Assembly: GCF_947258935.1 (NCBI RefSeq)
Contig: NZ_CAMYKH010000001.1
Coordinates: forward strand, 1-64,000
Direction of reading: 5' to 3'
DNA from: an uncultured Muriicola sp.
GTDB lineage: Bacteria > Bacteroidota > Bacteroidia > Flavobacteriales > Flavobacteriaceae
DNA length: 64,000 nucleotides
Within the stretch, counting starts at the first letter, position 1. Every line of letters begins with the position of its first letter. The notes beneath the pieces were generated by a model. That model saw only the letters and a list, made by a program, of their open reading frames with translations, was not told the origin of the DNA and did no database searches. This document shows, piece by piece, positions 8,625-51,051 of this stretch. The translations under genes and the position numbers were made by a program.

Positions 8625-9023
8625 GTTTCTTATCTCGCTTTTACAGAGAAAAAATCGACTTAATCATTTGAGGTGGTAAAAACTCTATTAAAATAGGTGC
8701 TATTAATTGATATACTATTCGGTATATTATTGATTTTAACCCCTTGCTATTTGAAATCCTCTTTTTCGGTCTCAGTCCGGCGCTGATTAGGTCTTAAGTA
8801 CGTAAAAACCCGCTTATTTATACCCCTATCATTAGTTAGAGGTACATATTATTGAGATACACGACAAAAAACATCCATTTCACAACAAAAAGTAATCCTA
8901 TAGCAAGAGAACTTCTAAATTCGGCGTTATGAAAGAGATTATATATGGATAGACCCCTTTATTCGGGGCGAATCAAATAGCAATATCTCAAATTACAGGC
9001 TATCAATTAGGGTCTATAAACAC
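8625..9023. other. 399-base gap between tatA terminator and the PorE-like gene
   Basis: No reading frame of useful length on either strand. AT-rich, with a short complementary pair ATAGACCC (8949-8956) / GGGTCTAT (9010-9017) close to the downstream start, which could fold the leader. I see no clear TTG/TAnnTTTG promoter, although one is expected here for the plus-strand gene. Confidence 0.5.
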
Positions 9024-11825
9024 ATGAACATAAAACAATTCAGCATCTTATTTCTTTTGCTATTTGTAAGCTCTTTTAGTGGGCATGCTGCCGTTTTAGA
9101 TCTTTCTAACACGGAAGATGTAACTGCCTCTCCCAAAGAACTGTTCAAAAACAAAGCAAAAGCGCACAACATTATCACCAAAACTGTAGGTGGTTATGCT
9201 GATGTATACAATGGCTATTATCTGATCACCGGGGTATTTGGGGTGTCTCAAAATGCCAATAAATTTGCGCGTTCACTTAAACTAAATGCAGCTACTTCAG
9301 GATATTTCAAGAGCCCTGAAAATGGGCTGCATTATGTCTATTTAGATCATTTTTCTGCCGGGGAGGACGCTATTGCTTCCTACTTAGATGGAAAATACAA
9401 GAAGAAGATGTGGATCTTACATGTTGAAAACAGCAAAAAGAACCCATCTGAAATCATAGAAATAGTTAAACCCAATATTACTACCTCAGCTATACAATCG
9501 CATAGCCAATTTGTGAGAGCTGCCAAAAAATTTAAGATTGCCACCCGAACTGTTGAAGGAATGACCAGCATAGGAAATGGATATTATGCGGTTGCCGGTG
9601 TATTTGGTGATAAAAATAATGTTTCAAAATTCGTTAAAGAGCTACGAACCAAAGGATTGTATGCTTTAACGGCAGATAACCCTGTTTCTAAGCTAACATA
9701 TGTTTATCTAGCCCACTCAAAAGATTGGAACGGTGTCCTAAAAGCTGCATCGTCACGGTTAAGTGGAAGCTATGGGGATAAGCTTTGGATCATGCATATT
9801 AAAAATGAGACCGTATCTACTCCAGGTACTGCTTTACAACCAACTGCTGTAGGGCAATTTAAAAATAGCGCCACAATTCCTTCAGTGAAGAAGGTCTTTA
9901 GAAGAAACACAATAAAAGATCCACCCAATAAACTGTTGCAGAAAGCAGATGAATATTTTGATAAGATGTGGTATGCTGAGGCGGCTGAATTGTATGAGCA
10001 ATTTTTAAAGAATAATGAGGATAATTATACCTATGAAGTCATACAAAAGGCGGGGGATTCGCACTATTTTAATACAAATATGGAGCGAGCTTTCTATTGG
10101 TATGACATTCTTTACAATCGTTATAAAGACGATATAAGTGCCGAAAACATATTTAAATACGCACATAGTCTTAAGGGCACCGGAAAATACGCCAGGGCAA
10201 AACGCCTTATGCGCCTGTACGACCGAAAAGTAAAAAAAGAAGGGATGCGCTACTCCGTGGATGATCCCCGAACTACACCCAAAGAAAAAGTCCTGGATAA
10301 CATCCTGAGTACAGAACAAGAATATACCATTCGGAATATAGGTACAAACTCAGAATACTCTGATTTCTCTCCTATGTTCTACAACGAGGATCAGCTGGTA
10401 TTTGCCTCCGCAATGGATTCATCCTTTTTTAGTACTCGCAAGTATAAATGGAATAATCAACCCTATCTGGATCTTTATGTTGCCAAGGTAAATAATGAAT
10501 CTCAAGAGGTAAAAGATGCCATAAAATTCTCTAAAAAGATCAATACAAAGTATCACGAAGCATCCGTTACTTTCTCACCGGATAATTCCACTATGTATTT
10601 TACCAGAAATAATTATGGGAAGAAGCTGAAACGAGATAAAAATGGAGTGAATAACCTAAAAATATACAGGTCCCGTAAAGTTGATGGAGCTTGGACAGAG
10701 GCCACTGAGCTTCCATTTAACAGTGATGAATTTTCAACAGGCCATCCTGCATTAAGTCCGGACGGAAAACAACTTTACTTTGTTTCTGACCGACCAGGAA
10801 GTTTAGGGGAAACAGATATTTTTGTAGTTGATGTGTACGAAGATGGCGGTTATTCTGACCCGCGTAACCTCGGACCGGAGATCAATTCGGAACGAAAAGA
10901 AATGTTCCCGTTTATAAGCGATAAGAAACTCTATTTCTCATCAAATGGCCATATCGGATTAGGAGGATTAGACATCTATGAAGTTGCCTTTGACGAAGAA
11001 AATGGCTTCCAGCAAGTGAAGAATATGGGGAAACCTGTGAATAGTAAGAAGGACGACTTCTCTTATATAGTGAACGAAGGAACACAAAAAGGATTTTTTG
11101 CCTCTAATAGACGCGGAGGTAAAGGAGATGATGATATTTATTCCTTCTCTAGATTATTGCCTGAAGAATTAAATCTAAATGCCATTGCAGGCGTTGTGAC
11201 CGAACAAATAACCGGTGAAGTAATGCCTGAGGCTCTTGTGACACTACTTGATGAAAACAATATTAAACTAAAAGAGGTTATTTCAGATAAAGATGGAAGT
11301 TTTGTCTTTGAAGATCTGGATAGCAACACAAAATATACTGTAAAAACTACTAAAGAAGGTTACTCTGAAGTAGTGCTCAATACACCTACCAAAGAGAATG
11401 AGCTGATCAATGTTGAGGTTTCCTTAGAAAAACTGGAAGACCTTATCGTCCTAGAGGAAGGGATCAAAAAGATCAAACTAAATATGATCTTCTTCAACTT
11501 CGATAAGTCGAACATCAGACCCGATGCAGCAGCCGAGCTGAACAAATTGGTAGCGGTCATGCAGGAAAACCCGTCAATGATCATCAAGATAGAATCTCAT
11601 ACAGATTCCAGGGGTAAAGCGATTTACAATAAATACCTCTCAGACAGACGAGCAAAATCAACCAGAGCATATATCATCTCTAAAGGCATTGATCCAAAAC
11701 GTATTGAAAGTGCCATTGGTTATGGAGAAGAAAGGCTTTTAAATGGATGTGATGGTAGTATTAAATGCAGTAGTGACCAGCACCAGCTCAACAGGCGTTC
11801 CGAATTTATTATAGTGAATATGTAA
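9024..11825 (+). CDS. PorE/PG1058-like OmpA-family protein with SPOR-like pair, TPR, PD40 propeller and carboxypeptidase-regulatory domain
   Basis: Probable periplasmic or outer-membrane-attached peptidoglycan-binding protein linked to type IX secretion. The 933 residues comprise a signal peptide (1-22), two ~80-residue SPOR-like repeats (about 56-137 and 179-263), a TPR-like helical part (~300-400), a WD40/PD40 beta-propeller (~430-710; LSPDGKQLYFVSDRPG is one blade), a carboxypeptidase-regulatory-like Ig domain (~715-790) and an OmpA C-terminal domain (~810-933) ending HQLNRRSEFIIV with the conserved peptidoglycan-binding Asp and Arg. TPR-PD40-CRD-OmpA is the known order of P. gingivalis PG1058 (PorE); the extra N-terminal pair recurs in the SprD-like protein at 33.9 kb. 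Flavobacteria carry several paralogues, so one-to-one orthology is not claimed. Confidence 0.88.
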   Translation: MNIKQFSILFLLLFVSSFSGHAAVLDLSNTEDVTASPKELFKNKAKAHNIITKTVGGYADVYNGYYLITGVFGVSQNANKFARSLKLNAATSGYFKSPENGLHYVYLDHFSAGEDAIASYLDGKYKKKMWILHVENSKKNPSEIIEIVKPNITTSAIQSHSQFVRAAKKFKIATRTVEGMTSIGNGYYAVAGVFGDKNNVSKFVKELRTKGLYALTADNPVSKLTYVYLAHSKDWNGVLKAASSRLSGSYGDKLWIMHIKNETVSTPGTALQPTAVGQFKNSATIPSVKKVFRRNTIKDPPNKLLQKADEYFDKMWYAEAAELYEQFLKNNEDNYTYEVIQKAGDSHYFNTNMERAFYWYDILYNRYKDDISAENIFKYAHSLKGTGKYARAKRLMRLYDRKVKKEGMRYSVDDPRTTPKEKVLDNILSTEQEYTIRNIGTNSEYSDFSPMFYNEDQLVFASAMDSSFFSTRKYKWNNQPYLDLYVAKVNNESQEVKDAIKFSKKINTKYHEASVTFSPDNSTMYFTRNNYGKKLKRDKNGVNNLKIYRSRKVDGAWTEATELPFNSDEFSTGHPALSPDGKQLYFVSDRPGSLGETDIFVVDVYEDGGYSDPRNLGPEINSERKEMFPFISDKKLYFSSNGHIGLGGLDIYEVAFDEENGFQQVKNMGKPVNSKKDDFSYIVNEGTQKGFFASNRRGGKGDDDIYSFSRLLPEELNLNAIAGVVTEQITGEVMPEALVTLLDENNIKLKEVISDKDGSFVFEDLDSNTKYTVKTTKEGYSEVVLNTPTKENELINVEVSLEKLEDLIVLEEGIKKIKLNMIFFNFDKSNIRPDAAAELNKLVAVMQENPSMIIKIESHTDSRGKAIYNKYLSDRRAKSTRAYIISKGIDPKRIESAIGYGEERLLNGCDGSIKCSSDQHQLNRRSEFIIVNM

Positions 11826-11852
11826 ACCATTAATCAACTAACCTACCCCAAG

Positions 11853-11885
11853 AAAGCCATCTTCTCAATGAGTAGGTGGCTTTTT
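11853..11885 (+). terminator. Probable terminator after the PorE-like gene
   Basis: AAAGCCA (11853-11859) pairs with TGGCTTT (11877-11883), loop of 17 bases, then a short T run. A competing stem CCTAC/GTAGG (11842-11846/11872-11876) overlaps it. Confidence 0.5.
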
Positions 11886-12067
11886 AGTTATACAAGGTGC
11901 AAAACACCACTATAGCTTATTTCACAAGACAATATTTACAATAAATCCCCCTTCGCCACAAGAATAAGGCTCTATACAACAAATATGAAAGGGGCAGATA
12001 CGCAACAGGTTAAATTAAAGTTATTACCATAAAAACAGTTTATTCTCACTGCCTAAATCTTTATTTT

Positions 12068-12238
12068 ATGAAACATATTTTACTCCTAAAAGAAATTTAC
12101 ATGGAGGCCTTTAAAAATTTAGGCTCCTATTTTGTTCGCAACTTATTTAAAATTTTCACCTGGTTCTGTCTAGCCTGTTTGGTCATAGTGCTTTATGCCT
12201 TTATTTTTAGAGTGGCCACTGGTTTTGCTTTCGACTAG
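12068..12238 (+). CDS. 56-residue single-pass membrane protein, paralogue 1
   Basis: Translates as a complete 56-residue protein from ATG at 12068 to TAG at 12236-12238. The N-terminus is amphipathic (KEIYMEAFKNLGSYF), followed by a hydrophobic segment at about residues 30-47 and the tail YAFIFRVATGFAFD. The 56-residue product at 12462-12632 has the same length and shares the frame KEIY-EAF-N, F-WFC, LYAF-FR-TGFAFD. This conservation at protein level with divergent DNA is good evidence that both are real. Function unknown. I have an unverified memory of similar flavobacterial small proteins catalogued as DUF6747. No Shine-Dalgarno sequence; a terminator follows. Confidence 0.8.
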   Translation: MKHILLLKEIYMEAFKNLGSYFVRNLFKIFTWFCLACLVIVLYAFIFRVATGFAFD

Positions 12239-12298
12239 ACAGAAAACTCACATGCTTTATAAAAAAGGAAGCTAACGCTGCTTACTTCTTATAAATTT

Positions 12299-12352
12299 AA
12301 CCTCTGCATCATCGGTATAACGGAAAAAGTTTACCATTGACAGAGGTTTTTT
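12299..12352 (+). terminator. Two-part hairpin terminator after small membrane protein 1
   Basis: Outer stem AACCTCTG (12299-12306) / CAGAGGTT (12341-12348), inner stem GGTAtAAC (12314-12321) / GTTTACC (12329-12335), then a T run. The extended structure separates the two paralogues into different transcripts. Confidence 0.7.
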
Positions 12353-12411
12353 ATATCGGCTGTTTTTCTAACCCAATTTTTGTGTTCTTTATCTAGTTAT
12401 TATACTTCTTC

Positions 12412-12437
12412 TGCCACAGAAAATGATCTTTGCCACA
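12412..12437 (+). promoter_or_regulatory. Repeated TGCCACAG motif before small membrane protein 2
   Basis: TGCCACAG occurs at 12412-12419 and 12431-12438, each followed by A-rich sequence; a related CGCCACAAGAATAA lies at 11954-11967 before paralogue 1. A shared operator or activator site is possible but is only inference. Confidence 0.25.
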
Positions 12438-12461
12438 GGATAAACATTAAAAGGCAGGGAT

Positions 12462-12632
12462 ATGCAGAGACTTTTACACTTTAAAGAAATTTATTTAGAA
12501 GCATTTAGAAACTGGAGTAATATGTTCCTTAAAAAGTATTTTAAGGCATTCTCCTGGTTCTGTTTTGGCCTTTGGCTTATAACCTTATACGCATTCGTAT
12601 TTAGGCTCTCCACGGGCTTCGCTTTTGATTAA
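12462..12632 (+). CDS. 56-residue single-pass membrane protein, paralogue 2
   Basis: Complete 56-residue product from ATG at 12462 to TAA at 12630-12632. The order is amphipathic FKEIYLEAFRNWSN, a basic patch FLKKYFK, a hydrophobic Trp/Phe-rich segment (about 30-47), then YAFVFRLSTGFAFD at the C-terminus. It is a same-length paralogue of the product at 12068-12238, with the two ends best conserved and the middle diverged. The charge pattern suggests the N-terminus in the cytoplasm and an invariant Gly-Phe-Ala-Phe-Asp end outside. Function unknown. It has its own upstream region and a strong terminator, so it is independently expressed. Confidence 0.82.
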   Translation: MQRLLHFKEIYLEAFRNWSNMFLKKYFKAFSWFCFGLWLITLYAFVFRLSTGFAFD

Positions 12633-12640
12633 AGGGAATA

Positions 12641-12676
12641 AAAAAAGCTCCAAACTTTACAGCATGGAGCTTTTTT
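12641..12676. terminator. Bidirectional terminator between convergent genes
   Basis: Perfect 12-base stem AAAAAAGCTCCA (12641-12652) / TGGAGCTTTTTT (12665-12676) with a 12-base loop; T runs on both strands serve small protein 2 (plus) and the DUF4837 gene (minus). Confidence 0.9.
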
Positions 12677-12689
12677 ATTTCTATAGGTT

Positions 12690-13670
12690 CTATTTGAATT
12701 TTATTGTTCGAATGATAGCCTCCAATTCAAACATATAATCTCTTTTATTTGTAGCCGGGGCGAAGGTGAATCCTTCCACGACCAACTTACGGTTGTTCTT
12801 TGCGTCATCCATTATAAATGTTGCGAATGGACCTGCCATGGGATAGTTCTCTATATCCCAAATACTTCGCGCTTCAATTGTTCTTTTACCATCGATCTCC
12901 GTTTCAAAGAAATATGGTGCAAAGGCGTCTTCGGTGGTCATATAGGTCTTCTTATTGGGGATATCTGGTCCCGGGATATACTTTTCCCCAATAGAATCGC
13001 GCATTCTAATAAAATCTGTCACAAAAGTGGAATCATTGGATAGGCTATTCCAGGGTATTTCATAGGCAATGATATTCATGCTCCCTTTTTGTATTTCCCG
13101 ATCTATCCAAACGAAATTATCTTCTTGCTTTCCTAACTTGTAGATGGAAGGAAGGCTTAACGTAACTCCAAATTTTTCTTCCAGTATATTATCCTTATTT
13201 AGAGATCTAAGGAATCTCTTCTGTGTTTCCTTTAATTCCATTGAAGAAATGGCTTGTATCATCTCCTCCGCATAGGTTTCAATGTTCCCTATGATCTCTT
13301 CCTCGGTTCTGCCTTTTATAACCCCGATCTCCTGAGGTGTAGCGTAAAGATCTGTTTTTACATGTGCTACGTTTACGGTATCCAGATCAACAAAAAGCAC
13401 GGCTCTGCGATGTCTTGTTGTACCGGTGAATACCTTCTGTGGCATTTGCTCCAAATTAAATACTGGTTCATCCCAGGTTAACCCTACCACGGGAGCAGCA
13501 AAATATTCGCGTAACTTATCCCCAACAGGCCCTTCCCATAGTTCATTGCTAATGACAACACCTACGGAGTTTATGGCGCCAATGGAAGCTGGTTTATACG
13601 ATTTTTTAGGTCCGTCGTTACAAGAAGAAAAAAGTAATAGGGCAAGCAGTAGTGTAAATTGGTGTTTCAT
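12690..13670 (-). CDS. DUF4837 family lipoprotein
   Basis: Function unknown; matches what I know of DUF4837, a Bacteroidota lipoprotein family. From the ATG at 13670 the protein has 326 residues and opens with a lipoprotein signal peptide ending LLFSSC with the lipidated Cys at 17. An in-frame ATG 18 bases upstream (13688) would give a less natural signal peptide, so I reject it. Mature features include ELWEGPVGDKLREYF and a central run on converting and checking numbers (RHRRAVLFVDLDTVN). It starts 60 bases after the lytic transglycosylase gene on the same strand, suggesting a shared envelope role or transcript. Confidence 0.85.
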   Translation of the reverse strand: MKHQFTLLLALLLFSSCNDGPKKSYKPASIGAINSVGVVISNELWEGPVGDKLREYFAAPVVGLTWDEPVFNLEQMPQKVFTGTTRHRRAVLFVDLDTVNVAHVKTDLYATPQEIGVIKGRTEEEIIGNIETYAEEMIQAISSMELKETQKRFLRSLNKDNILEEKFGVTLSLPSIYKLGKQEDNFVWIDREIQKGSMNIIAYEIPWNSLSNDSTFVTDFIRMRDSIGEKYIPGPDIPNKKTYMTTEDAFAPYFFETEIDGKRTIEARSIWDIENYPMAGPFATFIMDDAKNNRKLVVEGFTFAPATNKRDYMFELEAIIRTIKFK

Positions 13671-13730
13671 TGATCTTTGAGTCAGCATTATTCTAAACCG
13701 AGACCTAAATCTTACTTTAGATTCGGTGTC

Positions 13731-16735: not shown

Positions 16736-17887
16736 ATGCTTTTTAAGGAAATTATAGGGCTCCCCCACATAAAAAAACATCTGACGCAAAGCGCAGATTC
16801 TGGCCGTGTGCCTCATGCTCAGTTATTCGTGGGACCGGAAGGTTCAGGAACATTACCGGCCGCTATTGCATATGCCCAATACATTCTTTGTAACAATTCT
16901 CAAGGTGAAAATACTACGGGCGATGAAGCATGCAATCTAAAATGCAATGCTCTTTCACATCCCGATCTTCATTTTGCCTTTCCGGTATCCAATTCAGATA
17001 CTGTTAAAAGTCATGCTGTAAGCAATCACTACCTTACGGAGTGGAGACAATTTCTAAAAGAGGACCCATACGGTAGTTTATTTGACTGGTATAGGACCGT
17101 TGGCATAGAAAAAAAACAAGGTCAGATTGGTGTAGATGAATCCCATGAGATCGTGAAGAAGTTATCTCTTAAAGCCTACGAAGGTGGTTATAAGGTGATG
17201 ATTATTTGGATGGCTGAAAAAGTGAATACGGCAGCGTCCAATAAATTGTTGAAATTACTTGAAGAGCCACCCAACAAAACTATTTTTTTATTGATCGCAG
17301 AAGATGAGGAGCAGATCCTGCAAACGATCAGATCTAGATGTCAGCTGCTACATTTTCCTCCATTGCCAGAAGAGGCTATCACAGGAGCATTGGTGGAAAT
17401 GGGAGTGCAACGAGAAGAAGCCCAGCGGTTGGCTCATGAGTCTAATGGCAACTTCAACAAGGCCCTGGAGCTCATGAACAAGGATTCGGAAGAATTGATC
17501 TTTGAAAAATGGTTTGTTCAATGGGTGCGAAGTGCCTTTAAGGCCAAGGGTAAAAAGGCGGCAATTCATGAACTCATTTTATGGAGCGAGGAAGTGGCTA
17601 AAACCGGGCGAGAAACTCAAAAGAACTTTTTAAAATACTGTATGGCCGTTTTTAGACAAGCCATGCTCATTAATTATAATGTGGAAGAATTAGCCTATAT
17701 GAAGGTACATGTAGATGGATTTCAGTTCAATAAATTTGCTGGCTTTGTTCATGAGAATAATATCCTGGGGATCATGGAGGAATTGGAACAAGCTATTTAT
17801 CACGTAGAACGAAATGGCAATTCAAAAATAATATTGACCGATCTTTCCATTAAACTCACCAGATTATTGCACAGATCGGCAGCTTGA
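16736..17887 (+). CDS. holB: DNA polymerase III delta' subunit (clamp loader)
   Basis: Stator subunit of the sliding-clamp loader. The 383-residue protein is an AAA+ family member starting with the typical MLFKEIIGLPHIKKHL and VPHAQLFVGPEGSG. The P-loop region lacks the Lys-Ser/Thr pair, normal for delta', which does not hydrolyse ATP. Cys52, Cys66 and Cys70 with following His/Asp look like the zinc module; EEPPNKTIFLLIAEDEEQIL and Ser200-Arg201-Cys202 form the sensor-1 and SRC motif. The C-terminal third is the helical collar domain. The start is secure from the N-terminal family pattern. Confidence 0.93.
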   Translation: MLFKEIIGLPHIKKHLTQSADSGRVPHAQLFVGPEGSGTLPAAIAYAQYILCNNSQGENTTGDEACNLKCNALSHPDLHFAFPVSNSDTVKSHAVSNHYLTEWRQFLKEDPYGSLFDWYRTVGIEKKQGQIGVDESHEIVKKLSLKAYEGGYKVMIIWMAEKVNTAASNKLLKLLEEPPNKTIFLLIAEDEEQILQTIRSRCQLLHFPPLPEEAITGALVEMGVQREEAQRLAHESNGNFNKALELMNKDSEELIFEKWFVQWVRSAFKAKGKKAAIHELILWSEEVAKTGRETQKNFLKYCMAVFRQAMLINYNVEELAYMKVHVDGFQFNKFAGFVHENNILGIMEELEQAIYHVERNGNSKIILTDLSIKLTRLLHRSAA

Positions 17888-50802: not shown

Positions 50803-50874
50803 GGCACTGTGGTTGAATTGGATAGACAAGGCTGCGCAACAGCTTTTATGGTGGTTCGAGTCCACCCGGTGCCT
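50803..50874 (+). tRNA. tRNA-Cys-like gene with abnormal anticodon loop (GCA, C33)
   Basis: Folds as a complete 72-base cloverleaf: acceptor GGCACTG / CGGTGCC, D stem GTT/GAC with the GG pair in the loop, anticodon stem AGGCT/AGCTT, T stem GGTGG/CCACC with loop TTCGAGT. CCA is not encoded. The anticodon loop is GCGCAAC: the anticodon position reads GCA (Cys), but U33 is replaced by C, and bases 32 and 38 are G and C and could pair. A candidate -7 element TATATTTG lies at 50766-50773. It precedes an ordinary tRNA-Cys by about 100 bases. Confidence 0.7.
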
Positions 50875-50899
50875 CTACTTTTCCACACATAAATAATAC

Positions 50900-50928
50900 G
50901 CCTCTAAGTTATTAGGGGCTTTTTTTTG
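50900..50928 (+). terminator. Terminator after the first tRNA
   Basis: Stem GCCTCTAA (50900-50907) / TTAGGGGC (50912-50919) with one G-T pair, 4-base loop, then eight T residues (50920-50927). Confidence 0.8.
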
Positions 50929-50952
50929 CGTGATGTTTCCATCTTAATTTTG

Positions 50953-50960
50953 TAAATTTG
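50953..50960 (+). promoter_or_regulatory. -7 element for tRNA-Cys
   Basis: TAAATTTG matches TAnnTTTG and lies 12 bases before the tRNA. A TTG at 50926-50928 is 24 bases upstream, one more than the usual maximum. Its presence suggests the second tRNA is transcribed on its own after the terminator at 50900-50928. Confidence 0.45.
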
Positions 50961-50972
50961 CTGCTTTGTAAT

Positions 50973-51043
50973 GGCATCGTGGCCGAGTGGCTAGGCGCAG
51001 CTCTGCAAAAGCTTGTACAGCGGTTCGAATCCGCTCGATGCCT
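50973..51043 (+). tRNA. tRNA-Cys (GCA)
   Basis: Acceptor GGCATCG / CGATGCC perfectly paired; D arm GCC/GGC; anticodon loop CTGCAAA with normal T33 and anticodon GCA; T arm AGCGG/CCGCT with loop TTCGAAT; discriminator T as expected for cysteine. CCA is not encoded. The outermost anticodon-stem position is a C-T mismatch. Confidence 0.92.
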
Positions 51044-51051
51044 CTGGATTT

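Follow-up and report, generated by a model that had tools for sequence, protein, structure and literature searches.

Regulatory small membrane proteins include AcrZ, MgtS and MgrB, the last of which acts on the PhoQ kinase, and Qrr and csRNA are multicopy small RNAs driven by a regulator. Pfam lists a family of small proteins, DUF6747 (PF20532, a model of 55 positions with a curated cut-off of 27 bits), to which it assigns no function; neither the name nor the accession was found in the literature searched, and the family had no known context before. LytTR regulons of the AgrA, YpdB and HdrR types combine a LytTR response regulator with upstream sites made of two direct repeats (PMC4227749, PMC4847170, PMC6193735). 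In the sections consulted, these repeats are described as 9–11 nt long, separated by a spacer of 11–13 nt and without a common consensus (PMC4847170); in one LytTR class the spacer is mostly 12 bp, and ~ 10 bp separate the repeats from the −35 element downstream of them (PMC6193735).

The window analyzed here (the whole stretch of DNA, 64,000 nt from an uncultured Muriicola sp.) carries two DUF6747 genes, which we call copy A and copy B. Judged from sequence, DUF6747 proteins would be single-pass inner-membrane modulators, one of which would belong to a LytTR envelope regulon that probably has a small RNA as its second arm; we give this reading a probability of roughly 0.6. The pair and its surroundings are as follows.

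9024–11825, + strand: OmpA-family gene with SPOR, PD40, CarboxypepD_reg and OmpA domains (Pfam, NCBIfam), putative co-regulated neighbor
11851–11885, + strand: terminator-like hairpin after the OmpA-family gene (z −4.3)
12068–12238, + strand: copy A, DUF6747 protein of 56 aa with one predicted membrane helix (Pfam PF20532, E 3.9e-27)
12299–12353, + strand: terminator-like hairpin (12299–12348) and T-run after copy A (z −4.5)
12462–12632, + strand: copy B, DUF6747 protein of 56 aa with one predicted membrane helix (Pfam PF20532, E 1.8e-27)
12634–12682, either strand: two-way terminator-like hairpin between copy B and the DUF4837 gene (z −5.2)
12690–13688, − strand: DUF4837 gene (Pfam E 1.3e-95), conserved convergent neighbor by synteny and weak candidate for a small-RNA target

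The preliminary description had reported two 56-residue ORFs that standard gene calls would miss. Both are where it placed them, but a full-length Pfam model already exists: the two proteins score 94.9 and 96.0 bits over model positions 1–55, and because these values exceed the Pfam cut-off, A and B are members of a catalogued family and not new proteins. They match the model at full length and do not differ from it in size. As ordinary DUF6747 members they deserve interest for their regulatory setting, and it is the regulation, not the proteins, that is new. The shared protein frame over diverged DNA that had been described was borne out: A and B are identical at 30 of 56 residues (54%) in a full-length, gap-free alignment, with saturated dS and a dN of 0.35. 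The dN/dS comparison of orthologues that had been proposed as a check gave medians, from pairs with dS 0.15–1.0 only, of 0.077 for tandem A copies (64 pairs) and 0.123 for tandem B copies (62 pairs), and no pair exceeded 1. This indicates purifying selection on both copies and excludes chance ORFs; spurious ORFs are likewise ruled out by the Pfam match and by synteny.

The expectation of constrained ends around a free middle also agrees with the family. Among 109 diverse members, M1, Y11, F15, A44, R48, T51 and G52 are invariant and F53 and F55 nearly so, and the most variable columns include 20, 21, 24, 25 and 39. Hydropathy gives a single membrane segment at residues 29–47, and the structure model is one helix (residues 2–51; mean pLDDT 86.5, pTM 0.49), as the preliminary description of conserved single-pass membrane proteins would have it. 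The mean charge is +3 over residues 1–28 and +0.3 over residues 47–56, a difference that suggests a topology with the N-terminus inside and the C-terminus outside. A phage origin (weak matches only, E 0.033 and 0.19) and identity with cbb3 CcoQ (E 0.37) were considered and rejected.

The A/B pair sits between the OmpA-family gene and the convergent DUF4837 gene, and both neighbors have matches around DUF6747 in 65 of the best 80 named loci, where the usual gene order is M23, TatA, OmpA, A, B, DUF4837, MltD, PGK; 14 of the 80 are without an OmpA match. The OmpA-family protein scores 353.7 bits against the NCBIfam model T9SS_PorE (NF052230; cut-off 600) and 442.1 bits against CHU_0125_OmpA (cut-off 620). 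Because it misses both of these nearest cut-offs, the "PorE-like/T9SS" label it had been given is weak, and a PorE identity was rejected. The envelope role once read from the location keeps its footing in the conserved place and in a LytTR-type site common with the OmpA-family gene; its link to T9SS is weak.

Each copy is followed by a terminator-like hairpin of its own, as had been described. A nearer fold just after copy A was no better than shuffles (z −0.8). The hairpin after the OmpA-family gene suggests that copy A is a separate transcription unit. A sigma-70 promoter scan returned four promoters against 3.8 expected. Elsewhere in the window, positions 50803–51044 hold two adjoining tRNA-Cys genes with the same anticodon (ARAGORN), the first of them scoring below the Rfam tRNA cut-off and the second reaching it.

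DUF6747 occurs in 57 of 299 sampled Flavobacteriaceae species, with one to six copies each; the model span among the matches listed is 1–55, in one case 2–55. In an order-level sample, six of 246 genomes lie above the cut-off, all from the same family, and seven more lie below it. All nine genomes of the own genus are carriers, and named carriers among the best 80 loci include Muriicola, Eudoraea, Maribacter and Robiginitalea as well as Lentiprolixibacter, Poritiphilus, Ulvibacterium and Allomuricauda. The search for a third copy that the preliminary description had called for was successful: the own genome has five, the tandem A/B pair plus one copy each on contigs 29, 64 and 67. On a tree of 56 columns, with many forks unresolved and B copies L012 and L111 left out, A and B positions follow old groups, with 10 and 5 label changes versus 52 in shuffles. 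By this sequence grouping A and B are old paralogues, which rules out a recent tandem duplication. Twelve further copies, termed copy C, form one branch. At L184:7020–7187 copy C has an M48 peptidase gene on one side and a VanY domain nearby; its other flank is presumably a phosphoglycerate mutase-like gene, with what we take to be Na+-NQR- and ApbE-like genes close by. One genome (G218, 99% complete) has six divergent DUF6747 matches (best E 6.6e-12) and no orthologue at 1e-60 of the regulator described below.

In the upstream regions of 65 A copies, EM motif search detected a strong tandem direct repeat with the consensus TTCACAACA-N12-TTCACAACAAA, a 9-12-11 layout. The repeat, with a period of 21, was present in 56 of the 65 tandem A copies at half-site matches of at least 14/18. 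The A upstream regions match themselves with a peak at lag 21 (z 22.8), and the repeat starts 90–118 nt before the ATG in 66 of 67 sequences scored. The window has two such sites.

8858–8889, + strand: LytTR-type site before the OmpA-family gene, TACACGACA-N12-TTCACAACAAA, 18/20 to consensus
11952–11983, + strand: LytTR-type site of copy A, TTCGCCACA-N12-TATACAACAAA, 16/20 to consensus, its end 85 nt before the ORF

In the window, the A site is off consensus at four of 20 positions. With repeats of 9 and 11 nt and a spacer of 12, the copy A promoter has the LytTR layout; by sequence, the repeat before A and the OmpA-family gene has the geometry of LytTR binding sites, and we regard these as candidate sites. 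The half-site TTCACAACA matches none of the published LytTR examples compared, as they are given in the sections consulted. A site was found in 59 of 65 OmpA–DUF4837 intervals, i.e., the A intervals (six without), and in 43 of 49 whole TatA–OmpA intervals at 16/20 (six without); with an estimated OmpA start and a threshold of 17/20, the latter count was 26/55. Altogether, 81 fetched DUF6747 loci (899,283 bases) contained 104 sites of at least 17/20, versus one for the reversed pattern.

Genome-wide, with up to three mismatches allowed, all 37 DUF6747 genomes in a set of our choice (35 of the 57 carriers and two own-genus genomes) had 7–24 sites each versus 0–4 for the reversed pattern; 21 carriers, including several with the most divergent regulators, lie outside this search. 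In 20 genomes without DUF6747, which we picked from lists and most of which are nearly complete, there were 0–4 sites versus 0–9 reversed, and none of the 20 was enriched. The own genome was also searched and gave nine sites with the degenerate pattern versus one for the control. These lie before A, before the OmpA-family gene (8858), at the locus of a LytTR regulator (two sites), before an LRR-protein gene, before a second small membrane protein, before a small-RNA copy (contig 42) and, as two unassigned sites, on contigs 4 and 6. In four Muriicola-type genomes, sites recur before the kinase gene, OmpA and A, and two or three of the four have sites before LRR, collagen-repeat and Ig_7 protein genes. 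If the old paralogue A shares a LytTR-type regulon with genes for OmpA-family, LRR and collagen-repeat proteins, DUF6747 gains a testable role.

The second small membrane protein, of ~ 42 aa (HPILNRILSALNFSLEVVLLLIALGFLIGLY), is encoded on contig 2 of the own genome (G000, 17758–17877, − strand) and in L246–L253. It was found in eight of 299 genomes, with one more doubtful match containing stops; all eight genomes have a LytTR-type site of at least 15/20 upstream of its gene, and two members gave no Pfam match. A stretch of contig 3 of G184 (620234–621196, + strand) has four LytTR-type sites ~ 300 nt apart and is possibly a tandem array of regulated units.

Sites at both genes (43/49 and 59/65), together with the flanking OmpA and DUF4837 matches in 65 of 80 loci, would also be expected if DUF6747 were an accessory subunit of an OmpA-family envelope complex whose stoichiometry is kept by common regulation. 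We consider this unlikely, since the own genome has three more copies in other places, an OmpA match is missing from 14 of 80 named loci, and A, B and the OmpA-family gene each have their own terminator-like hairpin.

A modulator within a LytTR regulon, the reading we prefer, calls for a regulator. A candidate gene on contig 45 of the own genome (4368–5060) encodes receiver and LytTR domains (PF04397 E 7.9e-17) and lies beside a kinase gene with TPR, HisKA_2 and HATPase domains; of 30 regulator loci, 29 had at least one site in the stretch between the two genes. An orthologue 85–94% identical is found in the 37 other DUF6747 genomes tested, whereas the best match is at most 40% in the 20 genomes without DUF6747, 11 of which have none at 1e-20. 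Among all 299 genomes, from sets compiled by hand from search lists, 55 of 57 carriers have the orthologue versus three of 242 non-carriers, and of the two carriers that lack it, one is a genome 73% complete. The own genome's kinase gene reads as two overlapping ORFs of 417 and 247 aa that lie in different frames (L183:1737–3678, − strand), and a relative's kinase (L197) is one ORF to the locus end; the split may be genuine or may stem from the draft assembly.

Because of the sites at its own locus, the co-occurrence and the recurrence before the kinase gene, the contig 45-type regulator appears to be the likeliest binder of the repeat, and autoregulation of the regulator–kinase locus is suggested. 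Only related genera have DUF6747 and the regulator, and shared descent may explain why the two co-occur. Clade history alone, with another regulator binding the repeat, would account for both the co-occurrence and the common sites: all carriers are genomes of the same family, and the same genomes hold other LytTR-type regulators. However, the sites lie inside the regulator–kinase locus in 29 of 30 cases, the second LytTR-type matches in DUF6747 genomes are only 27–38% identical, and matches of 31–40% also occur in genomes without sites, so that we do not think this explanation likely.

The system proposed here resembles known LytTR regulons in its LytTR response regulator, in two upstream direct repeats of 9–11 nt with a 12-nt spacer and in a site at its own locus, as far as these features are described in the sections consulted (PMC4227749, PMC4847170, PMC6193735). 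It differs from them in its TPR–HisKA_2 kinase, in the half-site, in its Flavobacteriaceae targets and in non-coding units between regulator and kinase.

By analogy with MgrB on PhoQ, DUF6747 might be a feedback connector on the TPR kinase. A small protein that crosses the membrane once, is encoded behind the type of site that the system itself has and closely co-occurs with that system would suit such a role, but the regulator is found without DUF6747 in three genomes, and most paralogues have no site; we rate it as improbable. Two genomes show the reverse, DUF6747 without the regulator. DUF6747 is like the AcrZ, MgtS and MgrB class in having ~ 50 residues, one helix and a place behind a signal-responsive type of site, and unlike it in being multicopy with divergent promoters and in having no relative among solved structures at E 1.

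The preferred reading also includes a small RNA. The regulator–kinase interval has one to four sites and no conserved ORF beyond the translated site; hidden small ORFs were considered there and rejected, as the only sizeable groups were the site itself translated. Non-coding units follow both the first and the second site in four Muriicola-type loci; a scripted search placed a terminator hairpin behind the first unit at three of these loci and behind the second at two. The first unit contains a 14-mer core, TATAGTGTTCTCGT. To the 37 DUF6747 genomes above we added the own genome and another five from its genus, and 42 of these 43 contain one to four exact matches to the core; the sole exception is 74% complete. 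The core is present in none of the 20 genomes without DUF6747, and the reversed control gave 0–1. A site of at least 14/20 lies ~ 99–124 nt upstream in 47 of 50 distinct core copies or, by the fairer count of copies obtained from the core search alone, in 25 of 27. In the own genome (G000) the cores, all on the − strand, are on contig 45 (4196–4209), contig 42 (4307–4320) and contig 137 (516–529), the first two just downstream of a LytTR-type site.

We aligned 48 copies, ten of them obtained through the site search and some others through regulator loci, after dropping two of the 50 exact core matches (L102, L257) that were without the flanking pattern. The core is invariant in this alignment by construction, because the 14-mer was the search key. 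Independent evidence comes only from the hairpin after it and from the preceding 12 nt, where 11 positions are invariant and one nearly so. In the hairpin, 94.8% of cells are paired and 63 cells are changed on both sides versus 18.1 in shuffles; both-side changes affect seven of 12 pairs versus 5.2, a count reached by 32 of 500 shuffles, and the other covariation measures were reached by 0 or 1. An own site, no conserved ORF, a conserved core and a terminator are the features of a trans-acting small-RNA gene, and we treat the product as a putative RNA. Eight small-RNA loci gave no Rfam match at gathering score, and the regulator–kinase interval gave three matches at chance level (E 0.29–0.84). 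A 15-nt string of the small RNA was absent from the literature searched, in which, by titles, no circuit of LytTR, small RNA and Bacteroidota is described.

The LytTR sensor system seems, on sequence grounds, to drive an undescribed small-RNA family; if so, Flavobacteriaceae would have a small RNA that is multicopy and driven by a regulator. Like Qrr and csRNA, it would comprise one to four short RNA genes in each genome, most of them preceded by a site of the regulator's type, with a conserved unpaired core and a terminator hairpin; it differs in the type of regulator and in giving no Rfam match at gathering score in the eight loci. A second conserved non-coding unit, with the core CCCAAATCTTACC, is located at L183:3678–4365 with equivalents in L216–L245; its core is present within two mismatches in 19 of 29 regulator–kinase intervals, and it is perhaps another small RNA.

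Predicted pairing of the first-unit 14-mer with the copy C start reaches −13.4 kcal/mol or lower for 11 of the 12 copies (−9.4 in the twelfth), although these form one branch, nine of them from one genus, and are not independent. By comparison, one of 785 other gene starts reached −13.3 kcal/mol or lower, a DUF4837 gene; the 785 belong to genes in the neighborhood of the fetched loci, include many orthologues and do not represent one genome. None of 200 shuffled cores matched the copy C pairing, and none of 100 did so with a longer core. For DUF4837, 2/200 shuffled cores were as low (5/100 with the longer core), a weak signal given that 13 gene sets were tested. Copy B was borderline (10/200; 3/100), other copies gave 9/200 and 8/100, PGK gave 7/100 with the longer core, and copy A starts paired no better than control (62/200). 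The second-unit core gave nothing under 6/60 in four copy groups. The copy C pairing spans conserved codons, of which 2 and 3 are unusually uniform (GGA and ACA in 11/12). Twelve genomes carry copy C, and in 11 of them the core is also present. Among the fetched loci the RNA outnumbers copy C, which is therefore unlikely to be its sole target. We take copy C as a lead for a small-RNA target from predicted pairing, and DUF4837 as a weak candidate.

Small, hydrophobic, multicopy proteins and a core that pairs with the copy C start in 11 of 12 cases also recall a type I-like arrangement in which DUF6747 proteins would be membrane toxins held off by a trans-encoded small RNA; TimP/TimR is a known pair of such a layout, as described in the section consulted (PMC7667032). 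Of the features of a type I pair, complementarity to copy C is the one observed here. Yet both ends of the protein are conserved residue by residue with dN/dS near 0.1, A and B lie in conserved chromosomal synteny, complementarity is not above control for copy A, and copy A and the small RNA have sites of one kind. We rate toxins as an improbable explanation. A more specific form of the regulon reading is that the LytTR system swaps paralogues, activating A while the small RNA blocks translation of C, and perhaps of DUF4837, at the start codon, so that the other small protein acts on a common membrane partner; we put this forward tentatively and consider it rather doubtful.

For the LytTR-regulon reading that we favor, the following course can be drawn. 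The kinase would sense an envelope signal, and the TPR–HisKA_2 kinase and LytTR regulator would, by a bind-and-activate route, turn on copy A, the OmpA-family gene, the kinase's own gene and the small RNA; the regulator may also bind the repeat before some surface-protein genes. Copy A would insert in the inner membrane, probably with its N-terminus inside, where the conserved N-terminal helix (KEIYxEAF) and the outside tail (RxxTGFxF) would bind and tune a membrane partner. The multicopy small RNA would probably be a second, post-transcriptional arm that represses copy C and perhaps DUF4837. The evidence proper consists of protein conservation, the geometry, enrichment and placement of the sites, co-occurrence and the conservation of the putative RNA genes; from it we infer regulator binding, the direction of regulation, small-RNA expression, membrane topology and partner binding, that is, every step of the mechanism beyond the presence of sites.

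The other paralogues have different upstream signals. An A-type site at 14/18 was found before none of 66 tandem B copies, none of 12 C copies and seven of 43 other copies. DUF6747 is therefore not confined to the LytTR regulon, and the paralogues seem, from their upstream sequences, to be wired to different inputs. Two elements precede copy B in the window.

12369–12402, + strand: weaker direct-repeat element before copy B (EM motif), with a different half-site and a period of ~ 21, a lead only
12425–12432, + strand: −7-like box of copy B, GATCTTTG, of Bacteroidota type

In the B upstream regions, counted with L012 and L111 left out, lag 21 is favored (19.0/63 versus 4.4 in shuffles). TTTG or TTTAG stands at the −7-like place in 61 of 63 B copies, and TATCTTTG is the motif named for Bacteroides promoters in the section consulted (PMC6193735).
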